Assembly: GCF_019801145.1 (NCBI RefSeq)
Contig: NZ_JAHVJQ010000004.1
Location: 62,001 to 126,000 of the forward strand
DNA from: Leisingera aquaemixtae
GTDB lineage: Bacteria > Pseudomonadota > Alphaproteobacteria > Rhodobacterales > Rhodobacteraceae
DNA length: 64,000 bases
Reading direction: 5' to 3'
Both the position numbers and the translations under genes were made by a program. Each line of letters opens with the position of its first letter. Within the stretch, counting starts at the first letter, position 1. Positions 6,478 through 17,743 of the stretch are shown piece after piece. The notes under the pieces were generated by a model that was not told where the DNA came from, did no database searches, and saw only the letters and a program-made list of their open reading frames with translations.

Positions 6478-8775
6478 ATGAGCCGCTTTGCCGCCCCAAT
6501 CGCCGAGCAGATCTGGGATATGAAATACCGTTTCAAGCAGGCCGATGGCGCGCCGATCGACGTGACCGTCGAGGACACCTGGCGGCGCATCGCGCGCGAC
6601 CTGGCGCGGGCGGAAAAGAAGCCGGAAGTGTGGGAAGAGAAGTTTTACAGCGCGCTGGAGGACTTCAAGTACCTGCCTGCGGGCCGCATCACCGCTGGCG
6701 CCGGCACCGCACGCCAGGTGACCCTGTTCAACTGCTTTGTGATGGGCACCGTGCCGGACAGCATGTCGGGCATCTTCGACATGCTGAAAGAGGCGGCGCT
6801 GACCATGCAGCAGGGCGGCGGCATCGGTTATGACTTCTCCACCATCCGGCCGCGCGGCGCCGATGTGAAAGGCGTGGCGGCGGATGCCTCCGGCCCGCTC
6901 AGCTTCATGGATGTGTGGGACGCGATGTGCCGCACCATCATGTCCGCAGGCTCCCGCCGCGGCGCGATGATGGCGACCATGCGCTGCGACCATCCGGATA
7001 TCGAGCAGTTCATCACCGCCAAATCCGACCCGGCGCGTCTGCGCATGTTCAACATGTCGGTGCTGGTCACCGACGACTTCATGGAAGCGGTGAAATCCGA
7101 CGGCTCCTGGGAGCTGCAGTTCGACGGCAAGGTCTATCACACCGTCGAGGCGCGCGACCTGTGGAACAAGATCATGCAGGCGACCTATGACTATGCCGAG
7201 CCGGGCGTGATCTTCATCGACCGCATCAACAAGGCCAACAACCTCAACTACGTTGAGAACATCTGCGCCACCAACCCCTGCGGCGAGCAGCCGCTGCCGC
7301 CCTACGGCGCCTGCCTGCTGGGTTCGGTCAACATGGCGCGGCTGGTGGCCAACCCGTTTGAGAAGGACGCCCATCTGGACCAGTCCGCGATGCAGGAGCT
7401 GGTCGCCACCGCGGTCCGGATGATGGACAACGTGGTTGATGTCTCCAAGTTTCCGCTGGCCGCGCAGGCGGAAGAAGCCAGGAACAAGCGCCGGATCGGC
7501 CTGGGCGTCACCGGCCTCGCCGATGCTCTGCTGATGCTTGGGTTGGAATACGGCTCCGACGAGGCGGCGCGTCAAACCGACGAATGGCTGCACGCGATCG
7601 CCCGCGCCGCCTATCTGGCGTCGGTGGACCTGGCCAAGGAAAAAGGCGCCTTCCCGCTGTTTGACGCCGAGAAGTACCTGAACTCCGGCAACATGCTGAA
7701 CATGGACGAGGACGTGCGCGACGCCATCCGCGAGCACGGCATCCGCAACGCGCTGCTGACCTCCATCGCGCCGACCGGCACCATCTCGCTCTATGCAGGC
7801 AACGTGTCCTCGGGCATCGAGCCGGTGTTTGCCTATGCCTACACCCGCAAGGTGCTGCAGAAGGACGGCAGCCGCACCGAGGAGGAGGTGGTCGACTACG
7901 CGGTGCAGATGTTCCGCGAGAAATTCGGCGCCGACGCCAAGCTGCCTGACTACTTCGTCAATGCCCAGACGCTGAGCCCCGCGGCCCACGTCAAGATGCA
8001 GGCGGCGGCGCAGAAGTGGATCGACTCCTCGATCTCCAAGACCATCAACTGCCCGGAAGATATCTCCTTTGACGACTTCAAGGACGTCTACATGCAGGCC
8101 TGGGATCAGGGCTGCAAGGGCTGCACCACCTACCGGCCGAACGACGTGACCGGATCGGTCCTGTCGGTGAGCGAGAGCGCCGACACCGCCCCGGGCGAGA
8201 CCGCCAAGGCGCCGCACGAGAGCGACGTGGGTGAGAACGGGGCGGAAGTCGTCTATATGTCCGAGCCGCTGGACCGCCCGCAGTCGCTGGAGGGCCATAC
8301 CTACAAGCTGAAGTGGCCGGACAGCGAGCACGCGATCTACCTCACCATCAACGACATCATCATCAACGGCCACCGCCGTCCGTTCGAGGTGTTCATCAAC
8401 TCCAAGAACATGGAGCATTACGCCTGGACGCTGGCACTGACCCGGATGATCTCGGCCGTGTTCCGCCGCGGCGGCGATGTGTCCTTTGTGGTCGAGGAGC
8501 TGAAGGCGGTGTTCGATCCGCGCGGCGGCGCCTGGGTGCAGGGCAAGTACATCCCCTCGATCCTGGCGGCGATCGGCGGCGTGATCGAGACCCATATGGT
8601 CAAGACCGGTTTCCTGGAAGGCGAGGGCATGGGGCTGAAGTCCGACCCGCAGGCGCAGGTGGTGAACCTGAACCAGCCCCGCGGCAAAGCCTGCCCGAGC
8701 TGCGGCCAGTTCGACATGCAGATGGTCGAAGGCTGCATGACCTGCCGCAGCTGCGGCCATTCCAAGTGCGGCTGA
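6478..8775 (+). CDS. nrdJ: Adenosylcobalamin-dependent ribonucleotide reductase (class II)
   Basis: Reduces ribonucleotides to deoxyribonucleotides using adenosylcobalamin to generate the thiyl radical, so it works with or without oxygen. 765 residues. The active-site loop NPCGEQPL is at residues 266-273 and the N-terminal half carries VTLFNCFV and MQQGGGIGYDFS of the substrate barrel. The C-terminus has a cysteine cluster (Cys739, 742, 753, 756, 759, 764) that re-reduces the active site. AGGA at about 6467 precedes the ATG at 6478. Monocistronic, followed by a terminator. It makes this organism's DNA synthesis cobalamin-dependent unless another reductase exists elsewhere. Confidence 0.97.
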   Translation: MSRFAAPIAEQIWDMKYRFKQADGAPIDVTVEDTWRRIARDLARAEKKPEVWEEKFYSALEDFKYLPAGRITAGAGTARQVTLFNCFVMGTVPDSMSGIFDMLKEAALTMQQGGGIGYDFSTIRPRGADVKGVAADASGPLSFMDVWDAMCRTIMSAGSRRGAMMATMRCDHPDIEQFITAKSDPARLRMFNMSVLVTDDFMEAVKSDGSWELQFDGKVYHTVEARDLWNKIMQATYDYAEPGVIFIDRINKANNLNYVENICATNPCGEQPLPPYGACLLGSVNMARLVANPFEKDAHLDQSAMQELVATAVRMMDNVVDVSKFPLAAQAEEARNKRRIGLGVTGLADALLMLGLEYGSDEAARQTDEWLHAIARAAYLASVDLAKEKGAFPLFDAEKYLNSGNMLNMDEDVRDAIREHGIRNALLTSIAPTGTISLYAGNVSSGIEPVFAYAYTRKVLQKDGSRTEEEVVDYAVQMFREKFGADAKLPDYFVNAQTLSPAAHVKMQAAAQKWIDSSISKTINCPEDISFDDFKDVYMQAWDQGCKGCTTYRPNDVTGSVLSVSESADTAPGETAKAPHESDVGENGAEVVYMSEPLDRPQSLEGHTYKLKWPDSEHAIYLTINDIIINGHRRPFEVFINSKNMEHYAWTLALTRMISAVFRRGGDVSFVVEELKAVFDPRGGAWVQGKYIPSILAAIGGVIETHMVKTGFLEGEGMGLKSDPQAQVVNLNQPRGKACPSCGQFDMQMVEGCMTCRSCGHSKCG

Positions 8776-10906: not shown

Positions 10907-11308
10907 TCAGCCAGCCCGTCCATCAAGCAGCGCCGCCGAGTCTGCGACGTGCTCCAGCGTCAGCGGCTTGCAGAGAAAGTCCCGTATCAGCGGGAAGTTT
11001 TCTGCGCGTTCCAGATCCGCAGGATTGACTGTGGTGCTGACGATCACCACAGCGGGCACCGGGTCCAGCTGCTGGATCTCGCGTCCGTACATCTCGAGGA
11101 ACTCGAAGCCGGTGATCGGCGGCATATTGATGTCGAGAAAAATCAGATCCGGTTTCGGGCCGCCGTCCTGAATATGCGCCAGCGCGGCTTCAGGGCCTTC
11201 GAATAGCTCCACCCCGCCGAACAGCTGCGACTTGTCGATGATCCGCTTGGCATATTTCCGGTCCATCCGTTCGTCATCAATGACGTAGACGGTTTTGCTG
11301 CTGGCCAT
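10907..11308 (-). CDS. Single-domain response regulator
   Basis: A 133-residue receiver domain without an output domain. Acidic pocket VIDDE near the N-terminus, phospho-acceptor Asp in LIFLDINMPPITGFEF, conserved Thr/Ser in VIVSTTV and Lys in FLCKPLTLEHV. ATG at 11308 with AGGAGA just upstream; it starts 1 base after the kinase stop, so the pair is co-translated. Last gene of the minus-strand stressosome operon. With no DNA-binding domain it must act by protein contact or as a phosphate sink or relay; the partner is not in the operon unless it is one of the upstream Rsb proteins or the Amt-GGDEF-EAL enzyme. Confidence 0.92.
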   Translation of the reverse strand: MASSKTVYVIDDERMDRKYAKRIIDKSQLFGGVELFEGPEAALAHIQDGGPKPDLIFLDINMPPITGFEFLEMYGREIQQLDPVPAVVIVSTTVNPADLERAENFPLIRDFLCKPLTLEHVADSAALLDGRAG

Positions 11309-11309
11309 G

Positions 11310-12554
11310 CTAGGTCTCCTGCAATTCGAGATCGACGCTGAACGTGGTACCCTTGCCGGGCTCGGACGTGAGGCTGATCGAAGCACCGTGGTTTTCGGCC
11401 ACCCGCTTGCACAACGCCAGCCCGATGCCGGAGCCGGGGAATTCGTCGTGGCGGTGCAGGCGTTTGAACAGGTCGAAAACCCTGGATTGCATCGCATCCG
11501 GTATTCCCAGCCCGTTGTCGGTCACCGAAATGCGCACCTTGCCCGGCTGCGCGGCCGGACCGCAGGCGACACGCACTTGTGCCGCCTTGCCCCCGGGGAT
11601 GTATTTCAGCGCGTTGGACAGCAGATTGGTCAGCAGCACCCGCATCTGGAACGGGCTGCCGCGGATGACCGGCATGGGGCCCACAACAATCCTGGCGCCG
11701 CTGCTGGTGACGAGCGGTCCCATATCCTTGAGGATCAGGCGGACCATGTCGTCCAGATCGACCGGTTCCGGGGTGAACTGGTGCTTGACCACTTTGGAAT
11801 AGTCCAGCACGTCATCGACAAGCTGGCGCATCCGCCCGGCGGTGCCGATCAGGTCGCCGATCAGCTCCCGGGCCTCCGGTTTCAGACCGGTGCCGTGATC
11901 TTCCAGCAGAACCTCCAGAAAGCAGTGGATGGTGTTTATCGGTGTCTTGAGGTCATGGGACAGCGCATAGCTGAAGTTGGACTGCTCCTGGTTGGTCTGT
12001 GTCAGCTGGCGGTTCTTGATCTCCAGTTCCTCGGCGCGGGTGCGGATCTCCGCCGTGCGCTTCTTCACCTTCTGATCCAGCTCGTCGCGCTGGCGCGCCA
12101 GTTCGAAGGTGATGTCGCGCAGCTCCTGCTCGACCCGGCGGCGCTCGGCGATTTCCTTGGTCAGATTGCTCATGCTGCTGACATAGCCACGCAGCGCCAT
12201 GTCATAAACGGCCATCCCCTGCAGAAAGAAATCCTCCACCCTGTCCAGGCTTTCGGCGGCCCTGCCGTCCGCGTCCAGGCAGTCGCGCAAGACCGCGAAG
12301 TGGAACAGGCTGAAATCCGACAGCGGCACCTTGGCCTGAAGGGCCAGGCGCGCGGTCTCATAGGCTTCGCCCAGCTGCGTTACGTCGCCGCTGCCGGCAT
12401 AGGCCATGAGGGCGGCCTGGAGCCGGGTGACGTCGTAGGCTTCGCCGCCCTGGTCCGCCTCGCCGCTGTTGATGTACGTCAGCAACGCCTCCTGGTACCG
12501 CTGCGCCGCCTGCACCATTGCGTCCCTGGAGGTATCCCGGGCCACGCCGGTCAC
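11310..12554 (-). CDS. Histidine kinase with RsbU-type N-terminal domain
   Basis: 414 residues. From the C-terminus: HATPase_c (N-box LLTNLLSNALKY, G-boxes DNGLGIP and GSGIGLALCKRVAENHG). HisKA follows, with phospho-acceptor His in SYALSHDLKTPINTIH, then a charged coiled coil. The N-terminal 120 residues contain RYQEALLTYINSGE and GEAYETARLALQAKVPLSDF, resembling the RsbT-binding domain of the phosphatase RsbU. This fits activation by RsbT released from the stressosome. The N-terminal part looks like a tandem duplication (two GEAY segments). GTG start at 12554 overlaps the upstream stop by 4 bases (GTGA); a longer frame runs upstream inside the phosphatase gene but is not real. No membrane segment, so cytoplasmic. 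Confidence 0.9.
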   Translation of the reverse strand: MTGVARDTSRDAMVQAAQRYQEALLTYINSGEADQGGEAYDVTRLQAALMAYAGSGDVTQLGEAYETARLALQAKVPLSDFSLFHFAVLRDCLDADGRAAESLDRVEDFFLQGMAVYDMALRGYVSSMSNLTKEIAERRRVEQELRDITFELARQRDELDQKVKKRTAEIRTRAEELEIKNRQLTQTNQEQSNFSYALSHDLKTPINTIHCFLEVLLEDHGTGLKPEARELIGDLIGTAGRMRQLVDDVLDYSKVVKHQFTPEPVDLDDMVRLILKDMGPLVTSSGARIVVGPMPVIRGSPFQMRVLLTNLLSNALKYIPGGKAAQVRVACGPAAQPGKVRISVTDNGLGIPDAMQSRVFDLFKRLHRHDEFPGSGIGLALCKRVAENHGASISLTSEPGKGTTFSVDLELQET

Positions 12555-13198
12555 TGGCGCCTCTGCCGGTGTGCGATGGCCAGCACCGTGCGGTCGTCGT
12601 GGGGCTTGCCGTAAGCCTCCATGCAGGCGGCGACATATTCCTGCAGCGGCATCTGCGCAGGGGGCGGCATTTCTCGGAAGCGGCGTGAGATACCGTCTGA
12701 GGCCAGCACTATCAGGTGACCCGGGGGGAACGCCTGCCGCTGCGTGTAGATACGGGAAACCTTCATCCCGAGCATGCCGCCGGTTTGCAGGATGCCGGTG
12801 CTTTGGTCCTGGCACGGCGGCAGCGGCCGGATGACTCCGTCAACATCCCCCAGCGCCGCCCAGTCTACAGTGCCGTCACTGGGATCTATCAGCGCCAGAG
12901 CCAGGGCGGCGCCGCGGGTGCCGCGCAGGCTTTGGCCGGCGGCTTCAAAAAGCTCCGGCAGAGGGGCCGCTTGCGCCACCGACAGCACGTGCAGGCAGGC
13001 GTTCGCCGTTTCATGCGCTTCCGCCCCGCTGCCGGTGCCGTCTGCCAGCGCCACCAGCAGCTTGCCGTCAACTATCCGGAAAAGATACCCGTCGCCGCAT
13101 TTGGCGCCGGCCGTCTTTGCAGCCTGCGCGGCGCTCCAGTCCAGCCATGCCCCCTCCGCACCAAGGGATATGCTGCCGCAATCCGTTCTTACCGCCAT
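12551..13198 (-). CDS. rsbX: RsbX-like PP2C-family serine phosphatase
   Basis: 215 residues, SpoIIE/PP2C fold. Metal-binding segments CGDGYLFRIVDGKLLVALADGTGSG (as two adjacent motifs), WAALGDVDGVI and VLASDGISRRF carry the expected aspartates. Length matches RsbX, the feedback phosphatase that resets phosphorylated RsbS/RsbR in stressosomes. It overlaps rsbT by 10 bases at its start and the kinase by 4 bases at its end, so it lies within a single coupled operon. An alternative name is a short SpoIIE-domain phosphatase. Confidence 0.85.
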   Translation of the reverse strand: MAVRTDCGSISLGAEGAWLDWSAAQAAKTAGAKCGDGYLFRIVDGKLLVALADGTGSGAEAHETANACLHVLSVAQAAPLPELFEAAGQSLRGTRGAALALALIDPSDGTVDWAALGDVDGVIRPLPPCQDQSTGILQTGGMLGMKVSRIYTQRQAFPPGHLIVLASDGISRRFREMPPPAQMPLQEYVAACMEAYGKPHDDRTVLAIAHRQRRQ

Positions 13199-13605
13199 TT
13201 CGTCACCGTTACTGTCAGCCCCTTGCCGGGGGCTGAACTGATATCGAATTCATCCACAATCCGCCGCGTCCCCGGCAGGCCGAGGCCCAGGCTGTTGCCG
13301 GTGGAGAACCCGTCCTGCATCGCCAGGTCGATGTCCTCCAGCCCGGGGCCCTGATCACGCGCGGTGACCCTGATCCCGACCCGGGGCCCGCTGGTCACTG
13401 CGCAGATTTCGATGTCCCCGTCTTGCGCGTATTTCACGATATTGCGGGCCAGTTCGGAGACAGCCGTTGCCACCAGCGCCTGATCCGGCCTGGAGAATTC
13501 CAGCTCGACGGCCAACTGGCGGGCCATCTGGCGCGCAGCGACGACATCACTGTCAAGCTTTACCCGCTGGAGAAGCGCGGCGGGATTGGGGGCCAGCTGG
13601 TTCAT
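13189..13605 (-). CDS. rsbT: RsbT-like serine/threonine kinase (GHKL fold)
   Basis: 138-residue GHKL ATPase of the anti-sigma/RsbT class. N-box SELARNIVKYAQDG, G1 box ARDQGPGLEDID and G2 box LGLGLPGTRRIVDEFDI are all present, and length fits RsbT (133). In stressosomes RsbT phosphorylates RsbS and RsbR, is released, and activates an effector through an RsbU_N-type domain. Such a domain is found at the N-terminus of the histidine kinase two genes downstream. ATG overlaps the rsbS stop (ATGA). Confidence 0.92.
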   Translation of the reverse strand: MNQLAPNPAALLQRVKLDSDVVAARQMARQLAVELEFSRPDQALVATAVSELARNIVKYAQDGDIEICAVTSGPRVGIRVTARDQGPGLEDIDLAMQDGFSTGNSLGLGLPGTRRIVDEFDISSAPGKGLTVTVTKWR

Positions 13606-13958
13606 GCGCGTTCACGCAGGAGGGCGATACCGTGATCGAGATTTTGGGCTGTGGGGACGTCTTCCAGCGTCAATCCAAGAAGCACCATGGCCATGGCGAT
13701 TTCGGGCTGGATGCCGACAATCGCCATTCTGGCGCCGCGCAGGGATACCGATGCCGCGATATCGCAGAGCATCCGGGTGCCGAAGCTGTCGATGACATCC
13801 AGCAGGCTGACATCCAGAATGACCCGGGTCGCCGACAGGCGGGAGACTTCCTCCAGGATGCGGGTCTGCATGTCCAGAATGTCGCTGTCCGACAGCTCCT
13901 CCTGAACGGATGCGATCAGCAGGTCGCCCTGGCTGACGATGGGCACACGGCGGCCCAC
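13602..13958 (-). CDS. rsbS: RsbS-like STAS domain scaffold protein
   Basis: 118-residue single STAS domain. Begins at a GTG at 13958, one base after the rsbR stop; an in-frame ATG at 13994 lies inside rsbR and is rejected. PIVSQGDLLIASVQEELSD is the first strand and helix, and LLDVIDSFGTRMLCDIA holds the serine corresponding to B. subtilis RsbS Ser59, the RsbT target. Forms the stressosome core with RsbR. Confidence 0.92.
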   Translation of the reverse strand: MGRRVPIVSQGDLLIASVQEELSDSDILDMQTRILEEVSRLSATRVILDVSLLDVIDSFGTRMLCDIAASVSLRGARMAIVGIQPEIAMAMVLLGLTLEDVPTAQNLDHGIALLRERA

Positions 13959-13959
13959 G

Positions 13960-14853
13960 TCAGGTCTCCAGCAGCTTGCGCGCGGTGGCGACACCGCGTT
14001 CCAGATCGCCCGCGGGGTTCAGCGCCTCGCCGGTCACGCCGATTTTGACCAGCGCCTGGGCCACCTCGGAACTGATGCCGGTCAGAACCGAATAGGCGCC
14101 CATCAACCGGGTTGCGGTCATGGTCTGGATCAGGTGGTTTGCCACCATGCTGTCCACCGCGGCAACGCCGGTGATGTCGAGCACGACCGCCCGTGCGCTC
14201 TGATCCCGGATGGCATCGAGGATCTGAATGGTCAGCAGCCGGGAGCGGTGGCTGTCTAGGGTGCCGACAACCGGAACCAGCAGCAGGCCCTCCTGCAGCC
14301 GCAGCACCGGTGTCGGCAATTCGCTCAGCTGCCGCTCGCGCTGCTCGATGGCTTCGGTGCGGGCGGTGGAAAACGCCTCCATCGTCAGGGCCTGGTGGCA
14401 GGCCGCCGTCTTGCGCAGCGATCGCTGCACCGTCTGGGCCTCCGCTGCGTCCTCGCAGCTGTCCTGCACCAGCTCGCAGACCCGGTTGATGGCATAGGTA
14501 TAAAGTCCCATGTAAAAGCTGGGAGAGATGCCGTAGCTTTCGTTGAAGATGCCCGCGGCTTCGCGGCCTTCGAAGTATTTCTGATCAAGACCGGCATCGA
14601 ACAGTTCGAGGAGGTGGCGCCGCTGCTGCGCGCGGACCTCCTGCATGCTGCCCGAGGTATTCTCGTCGCTGGGGTGGTCGTAGCCGCCGTCGCGGCTGTA
14701 GTAGTCCTGCAGAATACCGTCGATGTTCTGCTCCATCAGCGGAGAGAGGTCAGCCACCCGCGCGCGGTCATCCTGGCTGACGTCGAACCAGCCCCAGACC
14801 TCTCGCAAGCCTTCGCCCGGTGACTGGATCGTCGAAGAAATGACCTCGTTCAT
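13960..14853 (-). CDS. rsbR: RsbR-like stressosome sensor: protoglobin-like N-domain plus STAS
   Basis: 297 residues. Residues about 20-170 resemble the globin-coupled sensor/RsbR N-terminal globin fold (GILQDYYSRDGG, RRHLLELFDAGLDQKYFEGR, GISPSFYMGLYTYAINRV). Residues 185-297 form a STAS domain. At the position of the proximal heme histidine (four residues before the G of the Gly-x-x-Pro turn) there is Asn in IFNESYGISP, so heme binding is doubtful. The STAS sites equal to B. subtilis RsbRA Thr171 and Thr205 are both serine (GTLDSHR, VDSMVANHL). GAGGG precedes the ATG. First gene of the rsbR-S-T-X-HK-RR operon; about 146 bases separate it from the Amt-GGDEF-EAL gene upstream. Confidence 0.92.
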   Translation of the reverse strand: MNEVISSTIQSPGEGLREVWGWFDVSQDDRARVADLSPLMEQNIDGILQDYYSRDGGYDHPSDENTSGSMQEVRAQQRRHLLELFDAGLDQKYFEGREAAGIFNESYGISPSFYMGLYTYAINRVCELVQDSCEDAAEAQTVQRSLRKTAACHQALTMEAFSTARTEAIEQRERQLSELPTPVLRLQEGLLLVPVVGTLDSHRSRLLTIQILDAIRDQSARAVVLDITGVAAVDSMVANHLIQTMTATRLMGAYSVLTGISSEVAQALVKIGVTGEALNPAGDLERGVATARKLLET

Positions 14854-14999: not shown

Positions 15000-17726
15000 C
15001 TACCCGGCCCGCAGCGGCCGGTGCTCTTTCTGCCAGGCCAGGGCCCAGACCTGAAACGCCTCCTGGTCCATCGGGTGGCCAAAGGCGTATCCTTGCAGGA
15101 AATCCGCGCCTAGCTCGGCCAGGACCTCCGCCTCCGCCGCGGTTTCCACCCCTTCCACAACCGCCTTGGCGCCCGCGCTTGCCGCCATTTCGATCAGCCC
15201 GCGCATGAGGTCGCGGCGGGCCGGTTTCTGGTCGATCTTTGATGTGAACATGCGGTCGATCTTCAGCCGGTCCGGTTTCAGGGCCAGCACGCCTGCGATG
15301 CTGGCGTGCCCGGTGCCGAAGTCATCGATTTCAATGCTGATCCCCAACTCCTTCAGCGCCTGGATCTGCTTGCCGTAGTCCTCGCTGACATGGTCGAGGA
15401 ACACTGTTTCCAGAAGCTCGAAGGCCAGGCCCTGCTGCGGGATGTCCTGGCGCAGTTTCAGTTCTTCGATCAGGCTGGGGTGAGACAGCCGCGCCGCCGA
15501 GACATTTACCGAGATGCTGGGCAAGCCGATGCCGTTGCGGGCGAATTCCCAATAGGCTGCCAGCGCCAGGTCCAGCACCCGCCGGTCGAGATCCGCCAGC
15601 AGGTTCACCTCGATTGCGATCGGCAAAAACAGATCGGGGCGGAGAATGCCGCGGTCCGGATGGTTCCAGCGCGCCAGCGCCTCGCAGCCTGCCAGCGCGC
15701 CCGTTCTGCCGTCGATCTGCGGCTGGAACAGCACTTCGATCTCATCGTTTGCCAAGGCTGATTTGAAGTCGCGGATCAGGTCCATCTTCTCGTCATGCGC
15801 GGACCCGATGGTAGGGGAGTAGGCGCTGACGCAGGAGCGCCCGTCATCCTTGGAGGCATAAAGCGCCAAATCGGCCCGGCGCAGGGTGTCGGCCAGCGGT
15901 TCGCCTTCCTCTGCAAGGGCAAAACCTATGGAGGCGCCGACTTGCAGTTCCACATCCTTGTAGCTCACCGGCTGCAGCAAGTGGAACAGCATGTCCGAGC
16001 AGTATTCCTGCGCCGCGGCTTCTCCCTCTGAAAACTCCAGCAGCACAATGAACTCATCGCCGCCGATCCGGAACGCAAAGTCCCGCCCCGCGCGGATCCT
16101 TTCCTCCAGGCGCTGCGCAGCTGCAACCAGGATGAGATCCCCGGCCTCGTGGCCATAGGTATCGTTGACGTCTTTGAAACGGTCCAGATCCAGGGCGATC
16201 ACCAGCGTGCAGGGCCGCATTTCCTCAGCGGGGGCAGAGGCGATTTCCTCTAGGTACTTGCGGTTGCCGAGTCCGGTGAGCTTGTCGTGCCGGGCAGACC
16301 AGGCGCTTTCCTCCTGCGCTTCGCGCATGGCTTCAAAGGCCTCCTCGGCCAGTTCGCGGCTCATCCGCTCCTTGCGGATCGCGTCCATGCGCAGGGCAAT
16401 CTCGTCCTCTACCCGGTCGAGAACCCGGTTGTAGCGGAAGGCAAGGGCGCCCAGATCGGTGGACCGTTCTACCCGCACCCGGTTGCTGAACAGGCCCGAC
16501 CTTTGATGCCGCTTCATCTCCTCGAGCAATTCCAGAAGCGCGTTGCGCTGGTTGTTTTCGGCAAGGTTCAGCCCTCTGACCTCATCCCTGGGGCGCGCGC
16601 GCAGCAGCCCGGAGGCTTTCAGAACAAGAGCCAGGGGAACCGTGCACGCAATCACCCATGCGCCGACTGCAAATGCGCCGAGCGCCTGAACGCCCAGCTG
16701 CGCCAGGCGGTCCCCGGCAGGCAGCGCATCAAACGGCACGCTGAAGGCCACAGCCAGCGTGCCGAGCAACCCGGCTGCCAGATGGACCGGTATAGCACCG
16801 ACAACATCGTCGATCTTCAGCGCATCCAGAATGTCGCGCGAGATGATGACCGTGAGCGAGCCCGCAACGCCGATCAGAAATGCGGCGGGACCGGTCACCA
16901 GGTGAATCCCGGCTGTTCCCGCGACCAGCCCGCCCAGGAAGCCGTTGATCAGAATTTCCGCCCGGACATGGCCGAACAGCAGCAGGCCAATGGAAATGCT
17001 GGTGATGCCGGCACCGGCTGCCGACAGCATGGTGCGGGCAATGATCGGGCCGGCTTCAGCATTGAAAGCCAGCGCCGAGCCGCCGTTGAAGGCTCCCCAG
17101 CCAACCCACAGCAACAGGCCGCCAAGCGCAGACAGGGAGATAGAGTTTTCTTCAAAGAACCGTTTCTTCGGCCCGTAGCGGCCAAGCCGCGGTCCCAGAA
17201 AGAGGACCGCCACAAGCGCCGTCCAGCCGCCGACGCTGTGCACCACGGTTGCGCCGGCGAAGTCGATGAAGCCCAGCTGCCGCAGCCATCCGGCCTCGTT
17301 CCAGATCCAATGTCCGGCAACCGGGTAAATGAATGCGCCGAGCATGACCGACATGGCCATATAACCCAGAAACCTTTCCCGCTCTGCAACGGCGCCGGAG
17401 ACAATGGTTGCCGCGGTGGAGGCAAAAGCCATCTGGAACAGGAAGATGGCCGCCGAATGGCCCGCGGAATTGTCCAGCGGGGGAAAGAAGCCGGCCGAGC
17501 CGAACAGGCCGCCTGCGCTTGGCCCGAACATCAGACCGAAACCGGTCAGCCAGAAGGCGGTGCTGACGACGCAGACATCAGACAGGTTTTTCAGTGCGAC
17601 GTTGGCCGCGTTCTTGGCACGCACCGTGCCGGATTCCAGGCACAGGAAGCCGGACTGGAGCACAAGGACCAGAAGCGCGGAAAGGAGCACCCAGGCAGCA
17701 TCGATCTGAGACATGTAATCACTCAT
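15000..17726 (-). CDS. Ammonium transporter domain fused to GGDEF and EAL domains
   Basis: About 908 residues (numbered here from the TTG 3 codons upstream). Residues 10-380 are an Amt channel with about 11 membrane helices and both pore histidines (His166 in DFAGATVVHSVGG, His318 in DDVVGAIPVHLAAG). A coiled-coil linker spans 385-480. GGDEF (558-562) is intact, but the inhibitory I-site reads AGRD, lacking its Arg. EAL (685-687) is intact with DDFGTGHAS and EGVETAAEAE, so a working phosphodiesterase is plausible. It likely senses or transports ammonium at the inner membrane and adjusts c-di-GMP. Start unclear: TTG 17735, ATG 17726 or ATG 17714; no strong Shine-Dalgarno. Same strand as, and just upstream of, the stressosome operon. 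Confidence 0.93.
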   Translation of the reverse strand: MSDYMSQIDAAWVLLSALLVLVLQSGFLCLESGTVRAKNAANVALKNLSDVCVVSTAFWLTGFGLMFGPSAGGLFGSAGFFPPLDNSAGHSAAIFLFQMAFASTAATIVSGAVAERERFLGYMAMSVMLGAFIYPVAGHWIWNEAGWLRQLGFIDFAGATVVHSVGGWTALVAVLFLGPRLGRYGPKKRFFEENSISLSALGGLLLWVGWGAFNGGSALAFNAEAGPIIARTMLSAAGAGITSISIGLLLFGHVRAEILINGFLGGLVAGTAGIHLVTGPAAFLIGVAGSLTVIISRDILDALKIDDVVGAIPVHLAAGLLGTLAVAFSVPFDALPAGDRLAQLGVQALGAFAVGAWVIACTVPLALVLKASGLLRARPRDEVRGLNLAENNQRNALLELLEEMKRHQRSGLFSNRVRVERSTDLGALAFRYNRVLDRVEDEIALRMDAIRKERMSRELAEEAFEAMREAQEESAWSARHDKLTGLGNRKYLEEIASAPAEEMRPCTLVIALDLDRFKDVNDTYGHEAGDLILVAAAQRLEERIRAGRDFAFRIGGDEFIVLLEFSEGEAAAQEYCSDMLFHLLQPVSYKDVELQVGASIGFALAEEGEPLADTLRRADLALYASKDDGRSCVSAYSPTIGSAHDEKMDLIRDFKSALANDEIEVLFQPQIDGRTGALAGCEALARWNHPDRGILRPDLFLPIAIEVNLLADLDRRVLDLALAAYWEFARNGIGLPSISVNVSAARLSHPSLIEELKLRQDIPQQGLAFELLETVFLDHVSEDYGKQIQALKELGISIEIDDFGTGHASIAGVLALKPDRLKIDRMFTSKIDQKPARRDLMRGLIEMAASAGAKAVVEGVETAAEAEVLAELGADFLQGYAFGHPMDQEAFQVWALAWQKEHRPLRAG

Positions 17727-17730
17727 AAAT

Positions 17731-17743
17731 TGCAAAAATTGCA
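17731..17743. promoter_or_regulatory. Palindrome at the start of the Amt-GGDEF-EAL gene
   Basis: TGCAA-AAA-TTGCA is a perfect inverted repeat directly at the 5' end of the gene, and another TTGCAA lies at 17764-17769. Possible operator or promoter element; the region is very AT-rich. Confidence 0.35.

Follow-up and report, generated by a model that had tools for sequence, protein, structure and literature searches.

What does a stressosome control when its genes are followed by a two-component pair? This question is raised by an operon in a 64,000-nucleotide stretch of the genome of Leisingera aquaemixtae (contig NZ_JAHVJQ010000004.1; the whole stretch is hereafter called the window), which we compared with related loci numbered L035 and so on. 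Six head-to-tail open reading frames (ORFs) on the minus strand, running from 14853 to 10907, encode RsbR, RsbS, RsbT, RsbX, a HisKA histidine kinase and a single-domain response regulator, as a first-pass annotation of the sequence had described. We consider it likely that this is a Vibrio-type (rsbRSTX) stressosome operon with the two-component pair as its output, in which RsbT would dock on an RsbU_N domain of the kinase.

Adjacent genes of the operon overlap by 4-10 bases or are otherwise separated by 1-base gaps, and the GTG starts of rsbS and of the kinase gene were chosen to fit orthologs (the rsbS orthologs of L036 and L038 begin there). Pfam domains agreed with the gene assignments, being in gene order Protoglobin plus STAS, STAS, HATPase_c, SpoIIE, HisKA plus HATPase_c, and Response_reg alone, so that a contiguous minimal (RSTX) stressosome module is present with the expected domains in each gene. 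The closest solved relative of RsbR was 7o0i_B (E=7.8e-27, spanning globin and STAS), which we take to be V. vulnificus RsbR. Those of the other proteins were RsbS 6qcm_A for RsbS (E=1.4e-19), 3zt9 followed by RsbX 3w40 (5.1e-9) for RsbX, and the single-domain receiver 4xlt for the response regulator. Alignments placed serines at Ser201 and Ser235 of RsbR and Ser58 of RsbS, presumably the phospho-acceptor positions. The predicted active-site motifs of the kinase (phospho-His, N and G boxes; H200, N310, D346, G374) and of the receiver (D59, K114) are likewise present.

The link between the two halves of the operon is the N-terminus of the kinase, which the first-pass annotation had described as RsbU-like or RsbT-binding-like. 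The window kinase appears to carry an RsbU_N-like domain, a reading borne out through its relatives. RsbU_N was found above the Pfam cut-off in six of ten output proteins of related loci (L037, L041, L042, L043, L044, L045; best 2.1e-9), under it in those of L035, L048, L053 and L054, and above it in all six further kinases that were searched (L063, L065, L069, L079, L088, L131). When a profile of 12 kinase N-termini (alignment A3) was used, the RsbU chains 2j70, 2j6z, 2j6y and 1w53 were the top four of 13 PDB matches, with E values from 6.6e-7 to 7.7e-6. The predicted fold of the ortholog L064 (mean pLDDT 93.0) had 1w53 (RsbU) ranked first, with a probability of 0.97 and a target TM of 0.65, yet an E value of 0.26.

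Gene content points in the same direction. The kinase was detected in nine of 21 Leisingera genomes (E <= 1e-60) and rsbT in those same nine (E <= 1e-15), with rsbR-S-T-X preceding the kinase in all of them; among the genus relatives L035-L042 the order is identical with the regulator included. In the wider family, the RsbU_N profile matched 5 of 394 genomes, and the window N-terminus by itself drew 2 of 198 genomes, both among those five. From domain identity, operon position and this co-occurrence we infer, as had been suggested at first pass, that the target of RsbT is the kinase.

A scan with an RsbT alignment placed these observations in a broader frame. We retained the best 80 of at least 573 confirmed loci, a sample biased to the window RsbT. 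In 63 of the 80, an RsbU_N ORF followed on the same strand at a distance of at most 5 kb downstream; none was found in the other 17, five of which had less than 3 kb of sequence left. Fifty-one RsbU_N ORFs were scanned at E <= 0.01, after 12 ORFs shorter than 140 residues (in records taken as actinobacterial) had been set aside. Beside RsbT, the domains among these 51 proteins were RsbU_N (50), HATPase_c (38), HisKA_3 (20), HisKA (19), SpoIIE (4) and GGDEF (3). Of 41 next genes picked by script, 31 were scanned and ten ORFs of 85-141 residues were left out. Four of the ten come after an RsbU-type gene and are possibly rsbV; in L059, where the regulator is present, a wrong ORF had been picked. 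Response_reg occurred in 23 of the 31 and a LuxR-type GerE domain in 13, the corresponding loci coming from nine acidobacterial, two rokubacterial, one eisenbacterial and one gammaproteobacterial record. Judged by these predicted domains, kinases are the commonest RsbU_N output in the sampled RsbT loci, and the survey points to kinases as more frequent partners of RsbU_N than RsbU-type phosphatases in loci whose RsbT is like that of the window.

Two other arrangements were seen in the related loci. Twelve actinobacterial-looking RsbT loci (L066, L068, L085, L091, L092, L094, L095, L096, L099, L107, L114, L118) have ORFs of 81-132 residues with little beyond RsbU_N, starting 1.64-1.70 kb past the start of the RsbT match (that of L085 is cut by the contig end), and these are possibly free-standing RsbT-docking proteins. 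Proteins of about 330-360 residues that match both RsbT and RsbX occupy the place of rsbX, often ahead of a kinase, in L046-L052, L055, L098, L115, L116, L123, L130, L135, L137 and others.

Several results weigh against a simple docking of RsbT on the window kinase. Its own RsbU_N match (18.1 bits, E=0.003) is under the Pfam cut-off of 25.5. Fold searches gave no match at E <= 0.001, either with the model of ortholog L064 or, in Foldseek, with the N-terminal model of the window kinase (pLDDT 86.9, insert included), and RsbU was absent among the 50 matches listed for the latter. The insert consists of 25 residues that are absent in the 37 other rows of alignments A3 and A6, and 13 of its 25 residues and 45 of its 75 bases are identical to aa 46-70. 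This was the best of 66430 pairs of 25-mers at the protein level, with 0 of 20000 shuffles as good; at the DNA level, the best of 43365 pairs lying wholly outside reached 40 bases, and adjacent pairs in the kinase with similar scores were shifted versions of one duplication. DNA and protein comparisons agree that the insert arose by tandem duplication of the first helix region and has since diverged, and a duplicated helix could disturb RsbT binding.

The docking face itself is also altered. Residues implicated in the binding of the two Bacillus proteins are Y28, E24, I74 and I78 of RsbU and R19, R23 and N24 of RsbT, according to the available text of PMC12143880. We aligned 38 rows to RsbU, three of them RsbU-type. 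Of the 29 rows that fall outside the Leisingera sub-clade (27 distinct loci), 28 conserve E24, the exception being Asp in L043; none of the nine sub-clade rows (7 distinct loci) does, the window kinase having Val and the others Ala or Pro. Y28 is conserved only in the three RsbU-type rows and is Gly in the window kinase, so that neither of these two RsbT-contact residues is kept there; the I78 position is Ala. For RsbT, we assume that R25 and R29 of the window correspond to R19 and R23 of B. subtilis. These arginines were rejected as a mark of RsbU_N partners, being conserved with or without RsbU_N: among the 17 loci in which no RsbU_N ORF was found, R25 is present in 16 and R29 in 12, the other five having Lys. 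The position of N24 varies. Taken at the level of aligned residues, these losses argue against transferring the RsbU mechanism unchanged. Moreover, Heinz et al. obtained no positive interaction result for V. vulnificus RsbT and VvD1, which is without RsbU_N, as far as the accessible part of their paper goes (PMC9237108).

Loss of the E24 and Y28 positions would suit another mode of action, in which RsbT touches the kinase (or the regulator) only transiently and phosphorylates it on Ser/Thr, instead of staying bound as a co-activator. Heinz et al. put this forward for downstream kinases that have no RsbU_N, in the portion of the text available (PMC9237108). We regard it as unlikely here, where the kinase has an RsbU_N-like domain, the known docking domain, which in the available text of that paper went undetected in the Vibrio kinase.

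The same two losses would also fit a kinase in which RsbU_N serves for dimerisation only, RsbT exerts no control and the shared operon reflects co-expression. A further residue bears on this. In the MAFFT alignment, which is ungapped there, the three RsbU-type rows have Gln at the position of RsbU Q94 and the other 35 rows all have Leu, whereas the hidden Markov model (HMM) alignment places a 3-residue gap at that point and leaves the correspondence unsure. Since Q94L renders B. subtilis RsbU active without RsbT (PMC12143880, available text), the linker of these kinases may be pre-formed; we keep this alignment-dependent reading as a hint only. Dimerisation alone nonetheless seems rather improbable, given that kinase and rsbT share the same nine genomes and that a search of the whole genome at E <= 10 returned a single RsbU_N match, the one beside rsbT.

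The preferred reading, that RsbT docks on the kinase, builds on the domain content, catalytic residues, gene order, RsbU_N homology and co-occurrence with rsbT observed here. By analogy with published work on B. subtilis, Vibrio and Moorella, RsbR and RsbS would build a core that holds RsbT; upon a signal at the globin domain of RsbR, RsbT would phosphorylate RsbR and RsbS and leave the core; and freed RsbT would bind RsbU_N of the kinase dimer. Binding would then shift the autokinase/phosphatase balance of the kinase, and our choice of activation over inhibition is a guess. The kinase would phosphorylate Asp59 of the single-domain regulator, which would act on some unlinked target, again guessed, and RsbX would reset the core.

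What signal might enter at RsbR? Heme-based O2-sensing RsbR proteins of the Vibrio brasiliensis type have a proximal His and a distal Tyr; the window RsbR keeps the Tyr, and in alignments with heme-binding relatives Asn104 replaces the His. The phmmer alignment to 7o0i_B puts Phe103 at that position instead, and the segment is without His either way. In an alignment with HemAT, its His, which we take to be the proximal heme ligand, pairs with Asn104 of the window and with a His in the L042 protein. We gathered 94 RsbR sequences, namely 92 candidates plus those of the window and of V. vulnificus (VvRsbR). A globin domain was matched at E <= 0.01 in 31 of them; the residue at the proximal position is His in 9 of these, Asn in 10 and Tyr in 12, some rows being one locus twice. 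A tree of 21 sequences without repeats, to which L157 was added and from which eight Tyr-type rows were left out, contained His in 9, Asn in 8 and Tyr in 4. The eight Asn proteins, that of the window and those of L035-L040 and L065, group in a single clade (100/100), which adjoins His-type relatives from roseobacters, two other Leisingera (L041, L042) among them; long branches, that of VvRsbR above all, make the root and the deep joins unsure. The distal Tyr is present in all eight Asn-type proteins, and Phe occurs there in the four Tyr-type rows. A further group of RsbR globins (L103, L104, L070, L073 and others) carries Tyr in place of the proximal His and Phe in place of the distal Tyr.

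The window RsbR thus seems to have lost a heme-binding residue, and because Asn stands in place of the proximal His the input is probably not O2 via a normally ligated heme. We give about even chances to a wider scenario, in which the proximal heme ligand disappeared from the sensor in a roseobacter lineage of the globin-coupled stressosome and, later, the kinase face for RsbT docking changed as well in the Leisingera members of that lineage, the whole rsbRSTX-kinase-regulator operon being kept, so that a design for O2 sensing would now read a different signal. L065 has the Asn in its RsbR and retains E24 in its kinase. According to the available text of PMC4976288, both His and Tyr are retained by every RsbR globin examined in the V. 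brasiliensis clade, and those of Bacillus type are without them; if the ligand was indeed lost, the window protein would parallel the non-heme RsbR globins of Bacillus.

The surroundings of the operon differ within the genus. Flanks of 6 kb on each side were compared by blastn between the window and 12 relatives (four flanks were shorter than 3.6 kb). Downstream flanks agreed within {L035, L037, L040} and within {L036, L038, L039}, upstream flanks agreed well only for L036 and L038, and those of the window, L041 and L042 matched nothing in the compared set. From these groupings, the operon appears to occupy at least five genomic contexts in the genus. Upstream of rsbR, a gene at 15000-17735 on the minus strand fuses an ammonium transporter domain to GGDEF and EAL; its membership of the operon is unsupported, the 6-kb flanks of the window matching none of those of the 12 relatives. 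Another family member, L157, has an RSTX operon followed (7576-8568) by a 330-residue protein in which RsbU_N scores weakly (22.6 bits) and Pfam gave nothing else at E <= 0.001.

At the locus, the earlier observation that sigma factor, anti-sigma factor and RsbW/V are missing is correct; it does not extend to the genome. Genes for PhyR, NepR and an ECF sigma factor are grouped on contig C4, and contig C2 has a REC-SpoIIE gene and, at a separate site, a STAS gene next to a HATPase_c_2 gene (RsbY-, RsbV- and RsbW-like), which by their domains resemble RbaY and RbaV/RbaW of R. capsulatus (PMC3999984, available text). Given these predicted functions, the stressosome supplements the usual response genes of an alphaproteobacterium and does not replace them. 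Such genes would allow the pair to feed an existing stress pathway, the kinase or regulator exchanging phosphate with the RbaY-like REC-PP2C protein or the PhyR system and the end point being a sigma factor elsewhere. The operon regulator is without an output domain in Pfam, and the kinase of RbaY is given as unknown in the same partly available source (PMC3999984). We hold this to be highly improbable: the sequence gives no sign of cross-talk, and the operon has its own regulator beside the kinase. An EcfG-type promoter for the operon was also rejected, no site being found at its start and three pattern matches occurring in the window versus 1.53 expected (we assumed GGAAC-15 to 18-CGTT as the pattern). 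Predicted promoters of the sigma-70 type (1 site versus 0.5 in shuffles) and terminators (5 versus 2.8) were not used.

Table. Coordinates in the window of the operon genes and of the features discussed in the text
Feature	Position	Strand	Description
rsbR	13960..14853	-	protoglobin aa 22-164 and STAS aa 182-274; possible phospho-acceptors Ser201, Ser235
rsbR Asn104 codon	14542..14544	-	alignment position of the proximal heme His in HemAT and VvRsbR
rsbS	13602..13958	-	one STAS domain; Ser58 within IDSF, aligned to IDSF of solved RsbS proteins
rsbT	13189..13605	-	HATPase switch kinase; all 11 aligned sequences have R25 and R29
rsbX	12551..13198	-	single-domain SpoIIE/PP2C phosphatase; presumed feedback phosphatase
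histidine kinase	11310..12554	-	RsbU_N-like N-terminus, helical linker, HisKA (His200), HATPase_c
kinase RsbU_N-like domain, aa 46-120	12195..12419	-	profile evidence; predicted fold of ortholog L064
kinase 25-residue insert, aa 21-45	12420..12494	-	old tandem duplicate of aa 46-70
response regulator	10907..11308	-	single domain; Asp59, Lys114; no output domain found by Pfam

The novelty implied by the first-pass annotation for an alphaproteobacterium is not supported. In the parts available, Heinz et al. (2022, PMC9237108) already report HisKA/REC proteins as outputs of RSTX modules, mentioning Ruegeria by name, and RsbU_N in downstream proteins of alpha-, beta- and gammaproteobacteria, and an eLife paper of 2025 (PMC12143880) proposes RsbT control of RsbU_N proteins, kinases included; neither available text reports a direct test of RsbT on an RsbU_N kinase. 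Our literature searches found no paper on rsbR in Leisingera or on an RsbR globin in Rhodobacteraceae, and PMC9237108 was the only match for RsbU_N with a histidine kinase; a proximal histidine in RsbR gave two papers, one being PMC4476040. The modules of PMC9237108 share with the window a globin-coupled RsbR, RsbS, RsbT and RsbX followed by HisKA and REC proteins, some downstream proteins having RsbU_N; the available text treats their globin as heme-binding, whereas Asn replaces the proximal His in the window RsbR. Vibrio, offered at first pass as a comparable layout, is not the closest. The rsbRSTX-D1-D2 operon of V. vulnificus, which has two-component genes after rsbX, supplies the best PDB match of the window RsbR (PMC9237108 and PMC10014275, both in part). 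It differs in that VvRsbR keeps the proximal His, no RsbU_N was detected in its downstream proteins in what is available of PMC9237108, and its output is thought to be c-di-GMP in PMC10014275, the accessible part of which compares rsbRSTX and D1 mutants. The rsbRSTUVW-sigB-rsbX operon of B. subtilis has in common the RsbR/S/T core, RsbX and an RsbU_N docking domain on the target, but there a PP2C phosphatase is targeted and sigma-B lies at the end of the pathway, and here a kinase with its regulator takes that place. In Moorella thermoacetica (Quin et al. 2012 as cited in the available text of PMC12143880), RsbU_N is likewise carried by a non-phosphatase effector, an RsbU_N-GAF-GGDEF diguanylate cyclase, in contrast to the kinase of the window.

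The layout and the RsbU_N link are therefore not new as a kind, and the operon is a further case with an unusual sensor and a predicted docking step. As such, it offers a case outside Vibrio for testing the control of a histidine kinase by RsbT via RsbU_N, and operons with and without the heme His inside one genus provide a natural comparison for what the stressosome senses.

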